56,534 nucleotides of DNA. Source: Candidatus Timburyella stercoris (lineage in GTDB: Bacteria > Bacillota > Clostridia > Oscillospirales > Acutalibacteraceae). Where the stretch lies: the NCBI GenBank assembly GCA_904384255.1, contig CAJFJP010000002.1, forward strand, positions 1 through 56,534, written 5' to 3'. The notes under the pieces were generated by a model, which searched no databases, had not been told where the DNA came from, and saw nothing but the letters and a program-made list of their open reading frames with translations. The position numbers and the translations under genes were made by a program. Position 1 is the first letter of the stretch. Every line of letters begins with the position of its first letter. Below are positions 19,216 to 29,580 of the stretch, one piece after another.

Positions 19216-20718
19216 ATGATTTCTCTGAAAAGCGGCACAGATATAAGAGGAATTGCATCAGAGGGAGTAGATGGAGAGCATATAAATCTGACCGATGATG
19301 TAATAAAGAAAATAACAGCAGCATTTGTAAAATGGCTGTCGAATTACACGTCCAAGCCGGAAAGCTCGCTGGTTATTTCTATAGGTCACGATTCGCGTAT
19401 ATCTGCTGAACGTATAAAGTCGGCAGCAATATCGGCAATGGGCGGAATAGGCAAAATATATGATACTGGGCTTGCATCGACACCGGCAATGTTTATGTCT
19501 GTTATAGACCTTGACTGTGACGGAGCTGTACAGATTACGGCGAGTCATCATCCTTTTAATAGGAACGGGCTGAAATTTTTCACTAAAAACGGCGGCCTGA
19601 ATGAAAATGATATTGAAGATATACTGCATTTAGCCGAAAAAATTGAAGGGATATCCGACAAATGCGGTAATATAGAAAAGATTGACTATATGTCAAAATA
19701 TGCGACGCGCCTTAGGAAGCTGATATGTGATGGACTTGGCAAAAGCGAGGCGGATAAGCCGCTGAGCGGGGTTAAAATTGCGGTGGACGCCTCTAACGGC
19801 GCCGGCGGATTTTTTGCTGAAAAGGTGCTCCGTGAATTGGGCGCAGATATAAGCGGAAGCAGATATCTTGAGCCGGACGGGATGTTTCCCAATCACGTGC
19901 CAAATCCTGAAGACGCAGCGGCGATGGAGTCGATTTCAGAAGCAGTGCTTTAAAGCGGTTCGGACTTCGGCGTGATTTTTGATACTGATGTTGACCGCGC
20001 GGCCTGTGTTGACAATAAGGGCATGCCGATAAACCGCAATCGCCTTGTAGCGCTTGCAGCAGCTATAGCCTTAGAGCAGTGTCCCGGCGGTACAATAGTG
20101 ACGGACAGCACCACCTCTGCGGGGCTGAAATTATTTATAGAGGATACTCTTAAGGGAAAGCATCACAGATATCGCCGTGGATACCGCAACGTAATAAACG
20201 AAGGTATAAAGCTGAACGAAAGCGGTGAAAATTGCCCGCTGGCTATTGAAACATCTGGACACGCTGCCTTTAAAAACAATTATTTTTTAGACGACGGTGC
20301 ATATCTTATAACGCTGATAATAGTAAAAATGATGCAGCTGCGCAGTGAGGGGAGAAGTCTTGACGACCTTATAGAAGCGCTGGAGGAACCGGCTGAAGAG
20401 GCGGTATACAGGTTTGATATAATTTACAGCGATTTTAGAAGCTATGGTCAAAAGGTAATATCGCTGCTTATGGACTTTGCGGATAAAAATCCGAAATGCA
20501 GAATGGCGCCTGATAATTACGAAGGTGTGAGAATATATTGTTCAGCTGATGAAAAAGATTGGTTTTTATTAAGGCTAAGCGTGCATGATCCTGTATTGTC
20601 ACTCAATATTGAAAGTGCACACAAGGGCGGCGTTGCAAAAATAAAGAAGCTGTTAAAGCCGTTTTTCCTTAGCTTCAGCGGACTAAATATATCTTCACTG
20701 TGCTGTGAAGCAGAATAG
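19216..20718 (+). pseudogene. Phosphomannomutase/phosphoglucomutase family protein interrupted by one in-frame TAA (19951-19953)
   Basis: 19216..19953 and 19972..20718 are in the same frame; reading through gives SEAVL*SGSDFGVIFDTDVDRAACVD with both halves family-like (TASHHPFNRNGLKFF; GENCPLAIETSGHAAFKNNYFLDDGAYL). Confidence 0.8.
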
Positions 20719-21068: not shown

Positions 21069-22034
21069 CTACATAGATGAGTATTTACTTGATGTCGGCC
21101 GTAGCTCTACTTCTGTATATTCACCGTTCATATCCATAACATACTTTACGCTTGTAAGAAATAAATTAGAGTTATTTCCAAACATAGTATCGTTAATGGC
21201 AGCTTTTTCCCAAGTAAGAAAATTTTTATAGCCTGGTACGCGTATAGTATAAAAGCGAGTATCGGCATTATTTTGCTTTAACTCATAATCGCAAAGCTGC
21301 ATGTTTGCAACTTCTTTGGTATCAGGGAAATTTATAAGTTTTCTGCGGTTTATCATTTGGGCAGTCTCTGTCTGATCAGATGCCATTAACATATATTGTC
21401 CGCTTACCTCGCTTATACCCCACATTTGGCTGTATCTTTTATAGCGATCATCGTTGTATGACAAATATGAAAATTTAATTCCGCCCTCGGCGGAGTTTGA
21501 AAAGGTATGGGTAGTATTTATAAAGTTTGGATTAAATACTACTAATCCATCCTCATTGACGTCCGGAGCACAGCCGTATGCAAACCAGACTATAGTGCCT
21601 AATGCATCCCATTCAGAGTCGCCTTTATAAATTTCTGTTTTAAGCACTGTAGAGGCATTTAGAGCTTCTTTATAATTTATACCATATTTATTTTGAATGT
21701 AAGTTTGGAAATAATCCATTATAAAGGTGTTGTACGGGAACTCCCTCGGAATGGCATCATTATCTGTGAGCAGCGCACCGCGTGAGCGAGCAGTAACTTC
21801 CATATATTTGCCGTCGTCATCCATATAGGTATATACTTTATCTGTATATCCGGTAAAAAGCTGGTTATTGTTATCGTCATATAAATTTAAGATAAGCGCG
21901 TCTATCCTCTGAGTTGTTGGAAATACAACGCCAGCAGATGTATATGGCTCATATATTTTCTTTTGCATTACCAGTTTAATAGGATTTGCTATATCAATGT
22001 TTGAATAGTTAAGATCAGTTATAGAAACCTTCAT
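21069..22034 (-). CDS. Phage tail hub/baseplate-like protein (XkdQ/gpD-like)
   Basis: Position after LysM tail protein; IDALILNLYDDNNNQLFTGYTDKVYTYMDDDGKYMEVTARSRGALLTDNDA pattern; 4-bp overlap with upstream gene. Confidence 0.6.
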   Translation of the reverse strand: MKVSITDLNYSNIDIANPIKLVMQKKIYEPYTSAGVVFPTTQRIDALILNLYDDNNNQLFTGYTDKVYTYMDDDGKYMEVTARSRGALLTDNDAIPREFPYNTFIMDYFQTYIQNKYGINYKEALNASTVLKTEIYKGDSEWDALGTIVWFAYGCAPDVNEDGLVVFNPNFINTTHTFSNSAEGGIKFSYLSYNDDRYKRYSQMWGISEVSGQYMLMASDQTETAQMINRRKLINFPDTKEVANMQLCDYELKQNNADTRFYTIRVPGYKNFLTWEKAAINDTMFGNNSNLFLTSVKYVMDMNGEYTEVELRPTSSKYSSM

Positions 22035-22549
22035 TTCTTTAAAATCAGCTCCTTGTTTGGAGGCAAGACGGCATCAGTAATGCTTGGATTAAGCTCGATA
22101 AGCGTTTCTACTGGTATATTATATGCATTGCTTATAGCCCATATAGTAGTGCCGTTAAAGGTGCTTGCAGTATCACTGTTGGGACCGCTGTGCTCTATTT
22201 CGGTAAATATGTCTTCAACAAATGTAAAAGAATATTTTATACTTTCCGGACCCGGCTCTCCTAAAAGAGTAAATTCGGAAAAGTAAGCGGAGTAAGTGAC
22301 AAATCCCGGAATATAAAGTTCCTTTGGCGTATTGTCTTTAAACAAGTTGAATAGCTTAAAATAGCTTACAAATGCGCTTGTACTGAAAAACTCACCCTCG
22401 CCTGATAATATTCTTGCGCTTTGACCGTAATTTTGCAAATTGGTACCATTATTTGGTACAAAAAAATCCTTTAAATTTTTTGTGCATTTTAAAGTCATGT
22501 TAGTCGGATTATTTGGCCATGTAAATGTTGCAAATCTAAGTTTGTCCAT
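22031..22549 (-). CDS. LysM-containing phage tail protein (XkdP-like)
   Basis: C-terminal LysM: GTTIWAISNAYNIPVETLIELNPSITDAVLPPNKELIL. Confidence 0.65.
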   Translation of the reverse strand: MDKLRFATFTWPNNPTNMTLKCTKNLKDFFVPNNGTNLQNYGQSARILSGEGEFFSTSAFVSYFKLFNLFKDNTPKELYIPGFVTYSAYFSEFTLLGEPGPESIKYSFTFVEDIFTEIEHSGPNSDTASTFNGTTIWAISNAYNIPVETLIELNPSITDAVLPPNKELILKK

Positions 22550-22584
22550 ATCATTCTCTTTTCTGTAATAAATTAAGCTGTTAA

Positions 22585-22962
22585 CTATGTAATCTGACGT
22601 TTATAGGATAAGATTTGGATATTGTCAATTAACCGGCTGTTGATACTGCAGGATTCTTTTACATTTAAAAGTCGGCATTCGCTGAAAACGATATTATAAT
22701 CTGGCAGAGCGATTTTAATAGTAAAGGTGGCGTCTTTATACGAACTGAAGAAGTCCGGCGCATTGCTGTCGAGCTTTAACTGAGAAAGCGTTATATTATG
22801 TTCTTCCGTATCAAAGCACATATTATCGTAGGCTTCAAATGCACTGCCTATGTGCCGATATGATATATGGCTGTCGACGGTTATTGATTCTATCATCCCA
22901 ACAGGTGCATCATCTATGCTGACCAATATGTCTTTAGCAAGTACAAATTTAGCATCAGGCAT
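22585..22962 (-). CDS. Putative phage tail tube-like protein
   Basis: Beta-rich ~126 aa protein, order between terminator-like and LysM genes; start trimmed to MPDAKF. Confidence 0.45.
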   Translation of the reverse strand: MPDAKFVLAKDILVSIDDAPVGMIESITVDSHISYRHIGSAFEAYDNMCFDTEEHNITLSQLKLDSNAPDFFSSYKDATFTIKIALPDYNIVFSECRLLNVKESCSINSRLIDNIQILSYKRQIT

Positions 22963-23392
22963 TATTGCCACCTCCGCTCTGCAGAAGGTTGAAACACCTT
23001 GCGGATATAGACTGCGACAAAATTTCACTTGTTGAATTATATTGAACCGATCCTGTCGAAATAGAGGCAATGCTCAAGTTAGTATCTGACAAAAGTATAT
23101 CTATAGCGGAATCGATAAGGTCGGATATATAGCTGCCGCCTGTTTCAACATGAGCATAAATTTTAATGGTAATGTCTATAATTTCAGTGCTGCCAGTGAC
23201 ATAGGAATCGCTTGTAGAATAGACAACATTACCCAACCCAGCGTCAGACACCTCTGCTTTGACAGCAGATATGGTAACGCAAGGATAGCTTGAATATTTT
23301 TGATTTTGAGGATATTCACTGAATACCTCCATGTTTTGAAAAACCGCGTCGGATTTTAAAAGCGTTATAATATTATTGAGATAAGCTTGCAT
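22955..23392 (-). CDS. Putative phage tail terminator/minor tail protein
   Basis: ~145 aa, MQAYLNNIITLLKSDAVFQNMEVFSEYPQ...YPCVTISAVKAEVSDAGLGN; position in cluster. Confidence 0.4.
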   Translation of the reverse strand: MQAYLNNIITLLKSDAVFQNMEVFSEYPQNQKYSSYPCVTISAVKAEVSDAGLGNVVYSTSDSYVTGSTEIIDITIKIYAHVETGGSYISDLIDSAIDILLSDTNLSIASISTGSVQYNSTSEILSQSISARCFNLLQSGGGNNA

Positions 23393-23735
23393 TTGTAACT
23401 CCTACAGAATGTTTGAGTATAGCCCAGCAGTAGCAGGGCTTGTTTTTAAAATAAATCATTTCAGAACGCCGCACTACATATTTATCACCGGATGCATCTT
23501 CAATATATGTATCGGCATTCATATCGCCGAGATTATATTCGGCAGAGCCGATATATACGAAATACTTTATATTTTCATAGCCTTCGGGTTTATATGTTCC
23601 GCTTAAATACTGTCTGTTTTTGTACAGAAACGGCTGTATAAAAGCACTGCAGCTTATTGTGCCTTCTGAGCTCACTAATTTTATCCGGTTTCCGTATTTT
23701 TTAATAAAATAGTCCACCTGTTTGGCAGCGGTCAT
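23373..23735 (-). CDS. Putative phage head-tail joining protein
   Basis: 120 aa, overlaps both neighbours; position between connector and tail genes. Confidence 0.4.
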   Translation of the reverse strand: MTAAKQVDYFIKKYGNRIKLVSSEGTISCSAFIQPFLYKNRQYLSGTYKPEGYENIKYFVYIGSAEYNLGDMNADTYIEDASGDKYVVRRSEMIYFKNKPCYCWAILKHSVGVTNASLSQ

Positions 23736-24121
23736 TATAAATCCCTCCCGCAGTCAGGAATGGCAGAAAACACAAACTCGGAGTCAGATAAAAGGTGCAT
23801 AATAGGGCGCATATATTCCTGCTTTATGCTTTCGGCAGCGCCGATTGTATTGCCAGCACTACGCGTGACAGTAACGTCTCCTGCTTTAAATGATGAAGAT
23901 GTATCCTGAGCTGACGAGATAAGCGACATTCTGTAAAATGCCACGGCTGCCGCCGCACGGCATAATGCGTCCTCATTTGCTGCAGCAGATGACACGTCTA
24001 TTAACTGAGCTTCTATTTCCTCGGCACACGCCAGGCAAAGTCCGGAGTATTCTTCGGCGTCCGTCTCGGACAGGCCGCTGAACATACAAAAATTGTCAAA
24101 TACCTTATCGCTGTCTAGCAT
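23735..24121 (-). CDS. Putative phage head-tail connector protein
   Basis: Small helical protein directly after capsid gene; start trimmed to MLDSDKVF. Confidence 0.45.
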   Translation of the reverse strand: MLDSDKVFDNFCMFSGLSETDAEEYSGLCLACAEEIEAQLIDVSSAAANEDALCRAAAAVAFYRMSLISSAQDTSSSFKAGDVTVTRSAGNTIGAAESIKQEYMRPIMHLLSDSEFVFSAIPDCGRDL

Positions 24122-24177
24122 GATATCCTCCTTTCTAAATTGAGCGGCAGGGGGAACACCCCTGCCGCGGAGCAAAA

Positions 24178-25185
24178 TTACGCAGTAGCGAGCGAAAGAA
24201 CCTTGGAGGCGTCGGCAAATATCTTTGAGAAACCGACAGTGGAGGTTATGGCAGTGCGCTCTGTCTGACAGTCTATAAGCTTGTCATATTCAACGCTTAC
24301 GTCTGTAGATACTACCATTTCCAGCGAGTATTTCTTGTCAAGTGCGATAAATGTCTTTTCCGCCAGTGAGCTTGAGCATATGAGCTTTGCTCCGAGCGGA
24401 GTGCTCAGCTTGCCGGTGCCCTGGAAGTTAAGTCCGGTAAGGGGATTTTTAAACTCGTCTATAGCAAGCAAAAGCTGCATAACATCCTTTGATACTATAA
24501 TAGTATTCATTTCATACGGCTGCAAAGCTGCCCAGACCTTGAGAATATCGTCATATGTAACTGTATCGGCAGTTGCAACATTTACAACGCCGGCAGCATT
24601 GCTGTTATCGCCGGACTTTATGATAGAAACCGCATCGTTAAGCTGCTGTGATGCGATATTGGCGCCTATGCGCTTTAACGCAACGGTAAAAATGTCTATT
24701 CTCTGGAACTTGAGGGATTCATAAGAAGCCACCAGCATACTGCCGTACTTTTTAAGGTCGACAAGATTGGGCTTTGTCGTTACGGGTGAGCTGCTTATTG
24801 TGCCGCCCTCGGCTATTTCCGTGGAAATAGTGGTGCTTATATCGGCGCTTATGCTGCGATAATCTATGCCGGGTATAACAGTAACAGCCGCAGCAATATC
24901 TTCGACATTAACTATTTCTGACATACCCTGCTTAACAGCACGTCTTACATATTCAGGGAAGAGTATGCTTGACTCAGGAGCTGCAAAAAATTTCTGAACC
25001 ATGTCGGAATCCTTGCCGCAGACTTTTATGTCAAAACGCTTAAGCTGGCGCTGATAGGCGTCCATTCCCTCAAGCTCTGTTCCGGCGTATTCTGACGACG
25101 GGTCCAAGTCTTCAAGTATCTGTGAGAAGCTTTTAGCAGAGTTTGTGTACATGCTTTTAGTAAGGTTAATATTTTCGTAATTCAT
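24178..25185 (-). CDS. Phage major capsid protein (HK97-fold family likely)
   Basis: 335 aa after protease and portal; TTKPNLVDLKKYGSMLVASYESLKFQRIDIFTVALKRIGANIASQQLNDAVSI and LICSSSLAEKTFIALDKKYSLEM. Confidence 0.65.
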   Translation of the reverse strand: MNYENINLTKSMYTNSAKSFSQILEDLDPSSEYAGTELEGMDAYQRQLKRFDIKVCGKDSDMVQKFFAAPESSILFPEYVRRAVKQGMSEIVNVEDIAAAVTVIPGIDYRSISADISTTISTEIAEGGTISSSPVTTKPNLVDLKKYGSMLVASYESLKFQRIDIFTVALKRIGANIASQQLNDAVSIIKSGDNSNAAGVVNVATADTVTYDDILKVWAALQPYEMNTIIVSKDVMQLLLAIDEFKNPLTGLNFQGTGKLSTPLGAKLICSSSLAEKTFIALDKKYSLEMVVSTDVSVEYDKLIDCQTERTAITSTVGFSKIFADASKVLSLATA

Positions 25186-25203
25186 ATATATTCTCCTTTA
25201 AAA

Positions 25204-26208
25204 TTATATTTTAAATTCCTTATAGTCTTCCTTTTCGGCTTTGGGACCGTATGGCGCTATCTGCGGTGTCGGCGGGAACATCTTGTCGATATCGCTGTTG
25301 AACACCGATTTAAAGGCCTTCAGCTCATCGATAGACATCTTGTCGCATACACTTTCCATAACGTCCTTTTTAAGCTCCGGCTTGGCGATAGAGCATGACT
25401 TCAATACATCTGCTTTAAGGTCGTGCAGATATGTCTCGCCTATGCCGGCCATATACTCCATTTTCCTGATATAGTCTCCCAGCGCCTCCGCTTCAGATTT
25501 GTGAAGCAAAACACCGTTGTCGTTTACCGCCGAAAGAGATTTTACAGTAGTGGCAATGTCCAAATTATCCTCTCCCTTCGCATGAGCGCTTAATCCATAT
25601 GATTTTACAACGCCGGCCTTTGGCTGTGCCGGGACTGCGACAAACGACCATTCAAAGGCGTCGGCCGGATTGATAAGCTCGGCATAACACAGCTTTTTAG
25701 CGCCGTTTGATTTATACTGCCGACCTTTAACATGCTTGCATTGGTTGCTGCGCATGTCGTTGCCGCATATTGAGCATACCGTTTTAGCCACCGAGCATCC
25801 GATGCTGACTTCCTTTTTAATGCCGGCGTCAATTTCCGTACGCAAATCCTCATTGCGGCTGGTTTTAGGCATATATGCCCTCGCCTTAAGGCGCATATAA
25901 TCCTCACCGGTACTTGTTTTTTTGCCGGTTACCGGCTCCACCTCGCAGGCAAAAATTCTGGCCATTTGGTCCTTGCCCTTCATCGAATGGTCAAATATGC
26001 CGGACTTGCCGATATAAAGCTCGGCAAGCTTGTGAAGCGATTCTGTGGTGAACCTCTCAAAGTCCCTGTCTATCTCGTTGTCGCAGAGAATAATGGAGAA
26101 AACAAAGACCTCATCTCTTTTAAGCTGCCTTCTGGACTGCTTGTTGATAAGTTCAAGCTCCTCGTCCGTTATCTCTGAAGCAACCTTATCAAGATAACCT
26201 TCTTTCAT
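25204..26208 (-). CDS. Phage prohead protease-like protein with an internal Cys cluster
   Basis: SGIFDHSMKGKDQMARIFACEVE, GIKKEVSIGCSVAKTVCSICGNDMRSNQCKHVKG; between portal and capsid. Confidence 0.55.
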   Translation of the reverse strand: MKEGYLDKVASEITDEELELINKQSRRQLKRDEVFVFSIILCDNEIDRDFERFTTESLHKLAELYIGKSGIFDHSMKGKDQMARIFACEVEPVTGKKTSTGEDYMRLKARAYMPKTSRNEDLRTEIDAGIKKEVSIGCSVAKTVCSICGNDMRSNQCKHVKGRQYKSNGAKKLCYAELINPADAFEWSFVAVPAQPKAGVVKSYGLSAHAKGEDNLDIATTVKSLSAVNDNGVLLHKSEAEALGDYIRKMEYMAGIGETYLHDLKADVLKSCSIAKPELKKDVMESVCDKMSIDELKAFKSVFNSDIDKMFPPTPQIAPYGPKAEKEDYKEFKI

Positions 26209-27389
26209 TCAGTCTGGTCCTCCGTTTCTGATATTTTTTCTTCAATTTCCCGCGCCTGCATAGTGAGCAGTTGAGCACGCGCCATCTCAACCTCATCCTG
26301 AAGATTGATGTTGTCCCACTCAATAGATATCTCACTGCTGTGTCCGTTAAGACGCAGCCAGATATCACATATTTTATGGATAATGGGACTGAGCATCCGG
26401 CGGTACGCCTCAAGCTCGCTTGTTAAAATATCCGCCTGCTGGCTGCTCATTTTTTCAGTAGTGGACCAGCTTAGTCCAAGCATAAACGGCGGAATTCCGG
26501 TTTTTGCGACTATCTGTTCCATCATGTGCTTTACCGGCACCGACGAGTCGAGTATTTGATTGTCGGAACCGATTACTCTAATCTGCACATCTCCGACGGA
26601 TATAAAGTCCTTGACACTGCCTGGCTGCATGGCGCTGGCCCATTCCTGGGCAATCTGCATGGCACGGTTTTTGGCGGCTGCTTTGTCGAGCTGCGTCTCC
26701 GGCTTATAGGTAACGGCATAGCGAAGATTACCGAACCGCTCAAAATTCATGCCTATAGTGTTAAATATCTTGAGCAGTATGGCGCTTACAAATGGCAGAC
26801 TTCTGAGAAGCGATGTTCCGTAAGCGCTGCCGGGCTCTGGATTTAGCGCCGACAGCAGTATAAGGCTCTGATACTTTACCGGTACAGCGCGCCCGTCCTC
26901 TCTGCGGCATACCGTCGCCTGCAGCGGCCCGTTTTTAATAATCTCGATATCATGCAGCGGGACGTTGTAAAGCGCGCCTATTGTGTCGCGGCGGCAGCTG
27001 GGAACAATTTCTCCCACAGCCGTGCCGAAGGTTATAAGCTGGTCAAGATAGGTGTCCAAAAATGCATTTATTCCTATGCCGGTGCTTCCTACCTGTACCG
27101 TGTCAAGAAAGTGCTTTAGCTCGGCCGTCGTATCATCGTCATCGCATTTAACCTGGAATCCGCCGACCAGCCGCACTATTTTGGAAATAGCCGCGTCAAT
27201 TATCGGCACAGCCTCGCGTATAGACGCATACAGCCGTCTTTCAGGTCCCGACAGCGGTATATATCCGTTCAAGTCGTGAAATGGGTGGGATACAGGCCTT
27301 GCCGTCTGAACGGCGGAGCACTCTACATTGTCACAGGCGGCCGCCTCAGCGGGGTCGGCGTTTCTGGACAAAAATTTTAGTAAACCCAC
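26205..27389 (-). CDS. Phage portal protein
   Basis: IREAVPIIDAAISKIVRLVGGFQV, GTAVGEIVPS, VKHMMEQIVAKTGIPPFMLGLSWSTTEKMSSQQADILTSEL. Confidence 0.8.
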   Translation of the reverse strand: MGLLKFLSRNADPAEAAACDNVECSAVQTARPVSHPFHDLNGYIPLSGPERRLYASIREAVPIIDAAISKIVRLVGGFQVKCDDDDTTAELKHFLDTVQVGSTGIGINAFLDTYLDQLITFGTAVGEIVPSCRRDTIGALYNVPLHDIEIIKNGPLQATVCRREDGRAVPVKYQSLILLSALNPEPGSAYGTSLLRSLPFVSAILLKIFNTIGMNFERFGNLRYAVTYKPETQLDKAAAKNRAMQIAQEWASAMQPGSVKDFISVGDVQIRVIGSDNQILDSSVPVKHMMEQIVAKTGIPPFMLGLSWSTTEKMSSQQADILTSELEAYRRMLSPIIHKICDIWLRLNGHSSEISIEWDNINLQDEVEMARAQLLTMQAREIEEKISETEDQTE

Positions 27390-27404
27390 ATATTTACCTC
27401 CTGT

Positions 27405-28658
27405 TTATAGATTTCTGTTCAGCGCCGCCGCAAAAAATACATCCTCCTCGCTGTCCGCCACTGTAGCGACAAAATAGCGTATATCATCCATGGCGTGGTC
27501 GTTTTCCTTGCGCACGGCGTCTTTCACGCTGTCATTTTGCCAGCGGTAAAGAGAAAACTCCCTAAGCGTATCGCGGCAGGCGGCGCTGAACTTAATTTTG
27601 CCGGCCTTAAGCGCGGACGACACCTTGCGTATGCCGTCCATCACATTGTTGTCCGCCGACAGCACACTGAACAGCCCGTGCCGCCTTATAACCGTCATAA
27701 AGGAGGCGGCGGAGGGATCGCACACAACTGCTTCAATTTTTTTGCTTCCTGCAAGCGCTTTAAGCGCCTCATAATACTCCTCGTCGGTTTTTTGTTCGCC
27801 CTCCCTGCGCGAATCATAGTAATATTCCGCCAGCCGGTACCAAGTGTCTCCGCTCCTTCCCCACAGCCCGAAAGATGCAGGATTGACAGTACCATAGTCA
27901 CAGGAAATGTAAAACTTGTCGCACTGCGGCTCATCGTGAAAAATATGCTTTTCATGGGAGAACATTGGGTAAACAAGTCCGCTCGACACCGTCCAGCGTC
28001 CCTTTACAAACCGGTCGTAGAAGACGCCGCTGTAAAGTGCTTCGTAACGTTTTTTTATTGCGGGAGTAAGCGAGGGATTATCATCCATGGTAAAATGGAC
28101 ATATAGCGCATTTTTGGCGTCGCGCTTTTTAATCCACTCATTGTAAAACCAGTGCGAGGGGTTGTCAGGATTGCAGTTGAACCAGAAGCGCGACCCCGAA
28201 ACCGAACAGCGCGCAATAGCCTGCTCTGCAAACGAGCGCGGCATTAAAACTACCTCGTCAAGCAGAATGCCGGCTAAGGTAATACCCTGAATAAGTGCCG
28301 ATGACGATTCGTCCTTACCGCCGAACAGATAAAAATAATTTACTCTGTCTTTTTTGCGCACGGTAAGGATGTTTTTAGACGCCTTATATTCGCAGGAAAA
28401 CGACAGCGAATTAAGCATAGGAATAAGCGGCGCTATCAGATTTCTTTTAAGCGAGGATATCGTTTTGCCGCAAATGGCGAAGTATTGGCCGTCAAAGGCA
28501 TAAAATGCCCAAAGTACAAAGGACAGCGACATACAGGTGGTTTTTCCGCTTCGTACAGCTCCGTCGCAGATTATTGCATCTTTAGAGTAGTGAGGGCTGC
28601 TGCGGCACCACCAATTAAGCACTTTCAGCTGCTTATCGCTGAAACTTTTCCATATCAC
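27405..28658 (-). CDS. Phage terminase large subunit
   Basis: Walker A GAVRSGKTT, ILLDEVVLMP Walker B-like, nuclease-domain YISCDYGTVNPASFGLW and ENDHAMDDIRYFV. Confidence 0.9.
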   Translation of the reverse strand: MIWKSFSDKQLKVLNWWCRSSPHYSKDAIICDGAVRSGKTTCMSLSFVLWAFYAFDGQYFAICGKTISSLKRNLIAPLIPMLNSLSFSCEYKASKNILTVRKKDRVNYFYLFGGKDESSSALIQGITLAGILLDEVVLMPRSFAEQAIARCSVSGSRFWFNCNPDNPSHWFYNEWIKKRDAKNALYVHFTMDDNPSLTPAIKKRYEALYSGVFYDRFVKGRWTVSSGLVYPMFSHEKHIFHDEPQCDKFYISCDYGTVNPASFGLWGRSGDTWYRLAEYYYDSRREGEQKTDEEYYEALKALAGSKKIEAVVCDPSAASFMTVIRRHGLFSVLSADNNVMDGIRKVSSALKAGKIKFSAACRDTLREFSLYRWQNDSVKDAVRKENDHAMDDIRYFVATVADSEEDVFFAAALNRNL

Positions 28659-29143
28659 GCCGTTTCCTCCGAACTGGGCAGTGAGGAGACGGAGTTTTCC
28701 AGCGCCCTGTAAAACGAGTCGTGTTCGTCTGCCTGCTTTGCTTCATTTATGAGATATAGCTTTTCCAGGGCTTTAAGCCGGTCAAAAAACTTGATTTCAA
28801 TGCAGCCCTCTTTAGGCTTCTTAATTTCAGATATGGCATATAAATCGAGAGAATCAATATCGGAGGAATTTATAGTGTCCTCTCTTAAAAGTTTAACGGC
28901 ATCATTTACTGAGCCATAGGCCAGCCTGTTAAGCCCGGCAGTAGCGCCCATTTCAGAGAGTGTGTCCTTAAGCCTTGCAATCTCCTTGCACACATACCTG
29001 GCAGAAAGCAGCCTTGCGCCGGTGCGCTCAGGATTGCGTTTATATCCCGCTCTTACAGCGGCTTCTTTTGCATTTCCGTATATGATGTACATATAACAGA
29101 AGAGCTTTTCTTTTTCACTGATATTGCGTCTTTTCAATGGCAT
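28655..29143 (-). CDS. Phage terminase small subunit
   Basis: ISEKEKLFCYMYIIYGNAKEAAVRAGYKRNPERTGARLLSARYVCKEIARLK; 4-bp overlap with TerL; start trimmed to MPLKRR. Confidence 0.82.
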   Translation of the reverse strand: MPLKRRNISEKEKLFCYMYIIYGNAKEAAVRAGYKRNPERTGARLLSARYVCKEIARLKDTLSEMGATAGLNRLAYGSVNDAVKLLREDTINSSDIDSLDLYAISEIKKPKEGCIEIKFFDRLKALEKLYLINEAKQADEHDSFYRALENSVSSLPSSEETA

Positions 29144-29185
29144 TCTCCTTTGCAGTAGTTTCATAAATGGGTAAAAAAGAGCGGC

Positions 29186-29209
29186 CTGTTGCACACAGTA
29201 ATGCAACAG
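29186..29209. repeat. Perfect 8-bp inverted repeat just upstream of the terminase operon
   Basis: ctgttgca-cacagtaa-tgcaacag. Confidence 0.5.
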
Positions 29210-29339
29210 ACCGAAAATTATTTTTGCCTTTATAAATTTTTATTATTCAGAAACATAATGATATTGCCTAAAACACCACATCATTTTATCATATGGGCCG
29301 CTTCACCAACGCCGGTATTAGTAGCGGTATTTTATACTT

Positions 29340-29575
29340 TCCTTTAGAATTCCGCTTTATAATAGTATGCGAGACAGCGCAATAAATACGGCAAAGTGCG
29401 CTGCCATAGTTATAACTGACTTGGAGCATAGGAATGTAAGAAAGATAATAAATTAAAGAATATCAAATATTTAGCAATATCAATGCCGAGCGCCGCAATG
29501 GTAAAAGAAAGAAGTACCAATAAAATAAGTATCAATATAGAAACATCAACGGCTAGCCAGCCAATAATATGGATT
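29340..29575 (-). pseudogene. Degraded C-terminal remnant of a third ABC-2 permease paralog
   Basis: Minus-strand translation gives LAVDVSILILILLVLLSFTIAALGIDIAKYLIFFNL and, after a frameshift, SKSVITMAAHFAVFIALSRILL*, aligning with ...LLAMLDIDFTKYLIFFNL and QSAVAMAVHFVAFMAISYAVFIK of the intact neighbour. Confidence 0.75.
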
Positions 29576-29580
29576 AATTG

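Follow-up and report, generated by a model that had tools for sequence, protein, structure and literature searches.

A probably domesticated, gene-transfer-agent-like element inherited vertically within Oscillospirales

A compact cluster of phage head and tail genes on a bacterial chromosome raises the question of whether it is the residue of a prophage or a particle-forming device that the cell has kept. One such cluster lies at 21069-29143 of the window, i.e. the whole 56,534-nucleotide stretch of Candidatus Timburyella stercoris DNA analysed here. Based on its gene content, distribution and evolution, we propose that it is likely a particle-making element of Oscillospirales, domesticated and vertically inherited, that resembles a gene transfer agent (GTA). 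The finding is real and unusual; the evolutionary evidence is strong, and the particle function is what we infer from the genes. To our knowledge, GTAs outside Alphaproteobacteria are few, and the element is probably a new candidate GTA lineage.

The cluster comprises eleven ORFs on the minus strand, all open and none interrupted, running from TerS, TerL, portal, g4 (protease/scaffold) and capsid through three neck genes to tube, LysM and hub. The dense packing described in the earlier note is borne out, with 4-bp overlaps at three junctions: hub/LysM (22031-22034), protease/portal (26205-26208) and TerL/TerS (28655-28658). The features are as follows.

29188 to 29207, no strand assigned: 20-bp palindrome GTTGC-N10-GCAAC, putative operator and shared control site of the element (same motif upstream of TerS in relatives)
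29150 to 29230, minus strand: leader with AT tract, palindrome/hairpin, T-run and RBS (terminator-like hairpin at this place in 68/134 loci)
28655 to 29137, minus strand: g1, small terminase, TerS (phrog_51, phrog_2606)
27405 to 28658, minus strand: g2, large terminase, TerL, 417 aa (PF03237 2.6e-12; 575-bit profile match to the solved phage D6E TerL 5oe8)
26205 to 27389, minus strand: g3, portal protein, 394 aa (phrog_30703 portal 3e-134; one copy in relatives)
25204 to 26208, minus strand: g4, putative maturation protease and scaffold, 334 aa (phrog_16951 3.7e-101)
24178 to 25185, minus strand: g5, major capsid protein, 335 aa (phrog_3922 major head protein 5e-86; PF25209; dN/dS 0.033)
23735 to 24124, minus strand: g6, head-tail adaptor, 129 aa (phrog_541 0.0036, weak; co-linear orthologues)
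23373 to 23735, minus strand: g7, head stopper/neck protein, 120 aa (co-linear orthologues in most relatives; no family match)
22955 to 23392, minus strand: g8, tail terminator/neck protein, 145 aa (position; HMM to relatives)
22585 to 22968, minus strand: g9, tail tube protein, 127 aa (phrog_27038; located after the sheath gene where relatives have one)
22031 to 22549, minus strand: g10, LysM-domain tail protein, XkdP-like, 172 aa (PF01476 LysM 1.8e-6, over the cut-off)
21069 to 22034, minus strand: g11, baseplate/tail hub, gpD/XkdQ-like, 321 aa (phrog_177 baseplate hub 1.5e-9; dN/dS 0.09)

The identities assigned earlier hold for TerS, TerL, portal, capsid, tube, LysM and hub, while for g4 the protease label has weak support, from a match to the head-maturation-protease family phrog_18299 (3.8e-4). 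No PDB fold matched g4; its model predicts a beta-rich N-terminal part and a long helical C-terminal part, and the protein carries a Cys/His zinc-finger-like insertion in which C145, C148, C157 and H159 are invariant. In TerL, the ATPase motifs GAVRSGKT and LLDE as well as DPSAASF are intact, and they are conserved in 24/24 aligned relatives except for V35I and T40S at Walker A. TerS had been taken to begin at 29143, where an ATG is possible; the TTG at 29137 is the more likely start, as it is best spaced from the AGGAG. The AlphaFold model of g9 (pLDDT 89) predicts a tail-tube fold, matched by Foldseek with probability 1.00 to tube and neck proteins including the RcGTA tail tube 6tba. The leader has no Rfam match.

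As first noted, tape measure, sheath, lysis, integrase and replication genes are missing from the eleven-gene block; they are likewise missing from its immediate flanks, and the block also has no baseplate genes. Head, packaging and tail parts occur together without genes for replication or integration, a combination expected of a GTA. On one flank lie plus-strand cellular genes that we take, from their sequences, to be phosphomannomutase-like, SpoVAD and SpoVAC, and on the other ABC-transporter genes. In the sister species (locus L026), the element has the same neighbours. The phosphomannomutase-like gene is split into two ORFs in the window (19216-20718), being a single 500-aa ORF in the sister species, and is a pseudogene or reflects an assembly error. 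At 29250-29580 the window holds the remnant of a third ABC permease, of which the sister species has three intact tandem copies beside the element.

Homologous co-linear clusters, which the earlier note had proposed to look for, are widespread. The portal is present in single copy in 35 of 43 sampled genomes of the host family, i.e. the GTDB group with Caproiciproducens, GTDB family names being deduced here from named carriers. Two further families carry it, again in single copy, in 20/42 and 11/41 genomes (101/239 with a profile); the profile count refers to the family holding the genus Faecalibacterium, with almost always one match per genome. Elsewhere in the order matches are scattered and most other families are empty. 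Where several genomes of a genus were sampled, they agree on presence in 11/11 genera (host family), 6/11 and 6/7, the genus-consistency in the host family being significant (P<2e-4); presence is patchy within 5/11 genera of one family, and a few portal matches are interrupted by an in-frame stop within their alignment. Among the named carriers are Caproicibacter, Caproiciproducens, Faecalispora, Clostridium sporosphaeroides and Pseudoruminococcus, all of which we take to belong to Oscillospirales as defined by GTDB.

The element is inherited vertically, as one copy, under purifying selection. In 27 genomes, 12 of the 24 splits in the element tree (TerL, portal and capsid) recur in the RpoB tree, compared with a mean of 0.29 and a maximum of 4 in 2000 shuffles, and element and RpoB distances correlate (Mantel rho 0.66; 0/2000 shuffles). 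Between the window and the sister species, dN/dS is 0.03-0.13 for the computable genes, ratios that are rough with dS near saturation and that leave out g6 and g9; flanking cellular genes behave alike (0.02-0.13). TerL, portal and capsid are the most conserved genes of the element. No full prophage occupies this place in relatives, no relative is a complete phage, and disruptions are rare, so that neither outcome named in the earlier note as refuting it, a full prophage here in relatives or relaxed selection with frequent disruptions, was seen. The element is not a decaying prophage, and the earlier conclusions that it had escaped random decay and was domesticated and GTA-like gain support, the latter from the single copy, the genus-consistent presence and the co-diversification with RpoB.

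Co-linear genes at about 200 loci, located with HMMs built from relatives, reveal how much tail the element can possess. Beyond the hub, many relatives encode spike-like, gp25/sheath-initiator-like, Baseplate_J, Mu gp48 and fibre proteins, and some add a sheath, short at about 345 aa (PF04984/PF17482), and three small genes between tube and LysM; a long tape measure is found in no form of the element. The window's genus is devoid of sheath and baseplate, and the fibre is likewise lost. Relocation of the tail genes within the same genome was considered and rejected: Baseplate_J is absent from the whole genome of the window and from that of the sister species, so the baseplate was lost rather than moved. 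In a further clade no tail genes remain, and the terminator, a homologue of g8, is fused to a fibre domain. Placed on a tree of 119 loci, sheath-bearing forms are spread out in the pattern that repeated loss would give, and the fusion form belongs mainly to one clade. The minimal tail described at first is correct for the window's genus. With baseplate and fibre in many relatives and a short sheath in some, however, the element seen in the window counts as a reduced form. In sheath-bearing forms, fast-evolving proteins between tube and LysM (L271:6377-6964, L284:4954-5601) end in a shared RD(A/S)RRYDxxF-like motif.

Upstream of TerS, RTTGC-N10-GCAAY is found exactly at 34 of 137 loci and with one mismatch at 53 of 137, with a sharp peak at spacer 10 and a background of 0.05 per 310 bp; at most of the 137 loci the palindrome was not found. 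SOS (LexA), Spo0A and sigma-F/G boxes are not enriched upstream of TerS. In a 0.74-Mb genome (G481), scanned in full, the element's genes are split across three loci: one with TerS, TerL, neck, tube, W-like, LysM, hub, J, gp48 and fibre genes, one with protease and capsid, and one with the portal alone. GTTGC-N10-GCAAC precedes each of the three and also the adaptor, and that genome has no further intergenic strict N10 site, strict sites with other spacers being confined to the inside of genes. Among other reduced genomes, two (G499, G580) have the palindrome at both the portal and decoration-protease-capsid, with one arm altered by a base in one case; a third (G567) shows it at the portal alone. 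As a separate observation, sub-megabase genomes (0.7-0.9 Mb) of the Faecalibacterium-containing family keep virus-derived genes at separate loci (L266-L269, L286-L326).

The absence of lysis genes stated in the earlier note applies to the block, but one relative, a Ruminococcus sp. (L112), has a holin-endolysin cassette behind the same palindrome: there, genes for an XhlA-like protein, an SPP1 holin and a GH25 endolysin follow a second copy that lies 6.9 kb upstream of TerS. In another genome (G425, about two thirds of which was read), a second copy, with the downstream string unchanged, stands before the gene for a 101-aa membrane protein from the phage family phrog_4105. One clear locus and one small membrane protein suggest a link to lysis. 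In the part of the window's own genome that was covered, neither lysis genes nor a regulator turned up. Around one element, three near-identical palindrome copies with repeated flanking DNA (L274:1461, 3752, 12223) are possibly mobile or duplicated promoters.

We propose that the palindrome serves as the shared operator of the element. Instead of an operator, it could be an intrinsic terminator of the upstream genes or an RNA attenuator, as a T-run often follows, the palindrome can fold as a hairpin, and terminator-like hairpins occur upstream of TerS at 68 of 134 loci (10.5 in shuffles), including 32 of 57 with a co-oriented upstream gene and 29 of 67 with a divergent one. This alternative is unlikely, though it deserves some weight, and an attenuator role is possible. 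It would not explain why the spacer is exactly 10 and the GTTGC/GCAAC letters are conserved, why the palindrome is also present with divergent upstream genes, why several copies have no T-run, and why all four intergenic strict N10 copies of the 0.74-Mb genome stand at operons of the element.

Combining the shared operator with the tail series, we envisage the following course of events. A contractile-tailed prophage of Mu/PBSX type would have been captured by an ancestor of the sampled families and maintained in one chromosomal copy. A putative host-encoded regulator, acting at GTTGC-N10-GCAAC, would switch the packaging/head/tail operon, in some genomes together with the separate holin-endolysin operon. 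TerS and TerL may then fill small capsids with host DNA; no replication or integration genes are seen. The particle would be released by lysis. Docking to the next cell would occur via the retained tail, i.e. via baseplate and fibre in some lineages, via the LysM-bearing hub in the window's genus, and, in the clade without a tail, via the fibre domain carried by the terminator. That particles are made, that they take up random host DNA and that they transfer it are predictions from gene content. Taken in its fullest form, the proposal describes an order-wide Oscillospirales GTA, independent of FpGTA, in which a dedicated 20-bp operator unites scattered structural operons and a lysis cassette into one regulon, the tail has been lost step by step until a tailless particle with a receptor-binding neck protein was left, and even sub-megabase genomes keep the element; this composite we favour somewhat over its negation.

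The GTA-like reading is drawn from single copy, co-diversification with RpoB, purifying selection and genus-consistent presence, and the same facts make it very improbable that the element is a defective prophage remnant, i.e. what deletions left of a formerly complete temperate phage, with frames open by chance. Such a remnant would account for the phage origin of the genes, for the stepwise loss of tail genes and for the storage of its regions in IMG/VR as short provirus fragments. It is strongly disfavoured by a single copy that follows RpoB across families, by the low dN/dS, by a presence that is not sporadic and by the retention of nearly all genes in the 0.74-Mb genome. Extremely unlikely is a capsid-forming phage satellite (cf-PICI-like) that moves itself on borrowed tails: neither the block nor the flanks of relatives hold integrase or replication genes, the phylogeny of the single copy is vertical, the sister species carries it at the same locus and many members own a baseplate, even though some lineages do combine head and packaging genes with an incomplete tail.

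PBSX/Mu-type tail genes (LysM, hub, gp25-like, Baseplate_J, gp48) and PBSX-like lysis genes (XhlA, SPP1 holin) would also be in place in a domesticated killing device of PBSX or tailocin type, with DNA-filled but non-injecting heads and no role in gene transfer, and PBSX itself packages host DNA without injecting it (PMC12946183). We consider this improbable, since a contractile tail is thought to be needed for killing, yet the sheath was lost repeatedly and one whole clade is tailless, and TerL, portal and capsid remain the most conserved genes while tails vanish; nor is a toxin or immunity gene seen. A PBSX-like element should have both a sheath and a long tape measure, of which the former occurs in some relatives and the latter in none. 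The likeness to PBSX (Bacillus subtilis) and Mu-type tails lies in the order LysM, hub, spike, gp25-like, Baseplate_J, gp48 and fibre, and in the XhlA-holin lysis genes of one relative. The element differs in that all members are without a long tape measure, the sheath is mostly lost, baseplate and fibre are lost in the window's genus, and distribution across families is vertical.

The closest known system is FpGTA, whose hosts also belong to Oscillospirales. FpGTA of Faecalibacterium, called the first GTA in the human gut, comprises a compact TerS-TerL-portal-scaffold-capsid operon of about 10 kb and a second operon with baseplate, fibre, holin and endolysin, has no replication genes, and forms particles with about 40-nm heads, no visible tail and 8.4-8.9 kb of random host DNA (PMC12946183). 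The present element shares the compact head/packaging operon and the lack of replication genes, but is order-wide and known here from genes, whereas FpGTA particles are characterised. The two appear to be independent domestications, as TerL and capsid profiles of the element found no match in six genomes of a genus (g152) carrying the Faecalibacterium MAM protein, in a search in which control genomes from the family of that genus did match the capsid profile. We take this genus to be Faecalibacterium, assuming that MAM is genus-specific; a 16S search for Faecalibacterium gave a best match of at most 93%.

RcGTA is likewise a single vertical copy with a small head-tail cluster, more than one locus and host-side regulation. 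The present element resembles it and other alphaproteobacterial GTAs in its single vertically inherited copy and small head-tail cluster and, in reduced genomes only, in genes spread over more than one locus and in putative host-side regulation; it differs in belonging to another phylum and in its Mu/PBSX-type tail. The comparison with RcGTA proteins covered the tube fold, which matches 6tba.

The genes suggest a particle set that lets bacteria package, and perhaps share, their own DNA. If true, a second, order-wide GTA lineage would mean that dominant gut Clostridia routinely share genes by way of capsids. Cultured carriers exist (Caproiciproducens, Faecalispora, Pseudoruminococcus), the candidate operator provides a handle for finding the regulator, and the natural tail-loss series asks what a DNA-delivering particle minimally needs. 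GTA-like packaging has been reported in R. callidus, CAG-115 and Onthomonas with no operon named (PMC12946183), and the element may be a candidate source of these host-DNA particles.

No paper describing the element was found in the open-licence PMC literature. Its TerL is about 50% identical to those of the Firmicutes phages D6E, EJ-1 and SpaA1; the portal, instead, is specific to the element, being matched by only six records in phage collections, five of them unannotated fecal contigs. Candidates for free-phage relatives were rejected, as the portal of Microcystis phage MACPNOA1 is only 30% identical and the one large fecal record looked at (L370, MT835508.1), deposited as a 'bacteriophage', comes from a bacterial chromosome. 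This contig has the element beside ribosomal-protein genes and represents contamination or packaged host DNA.
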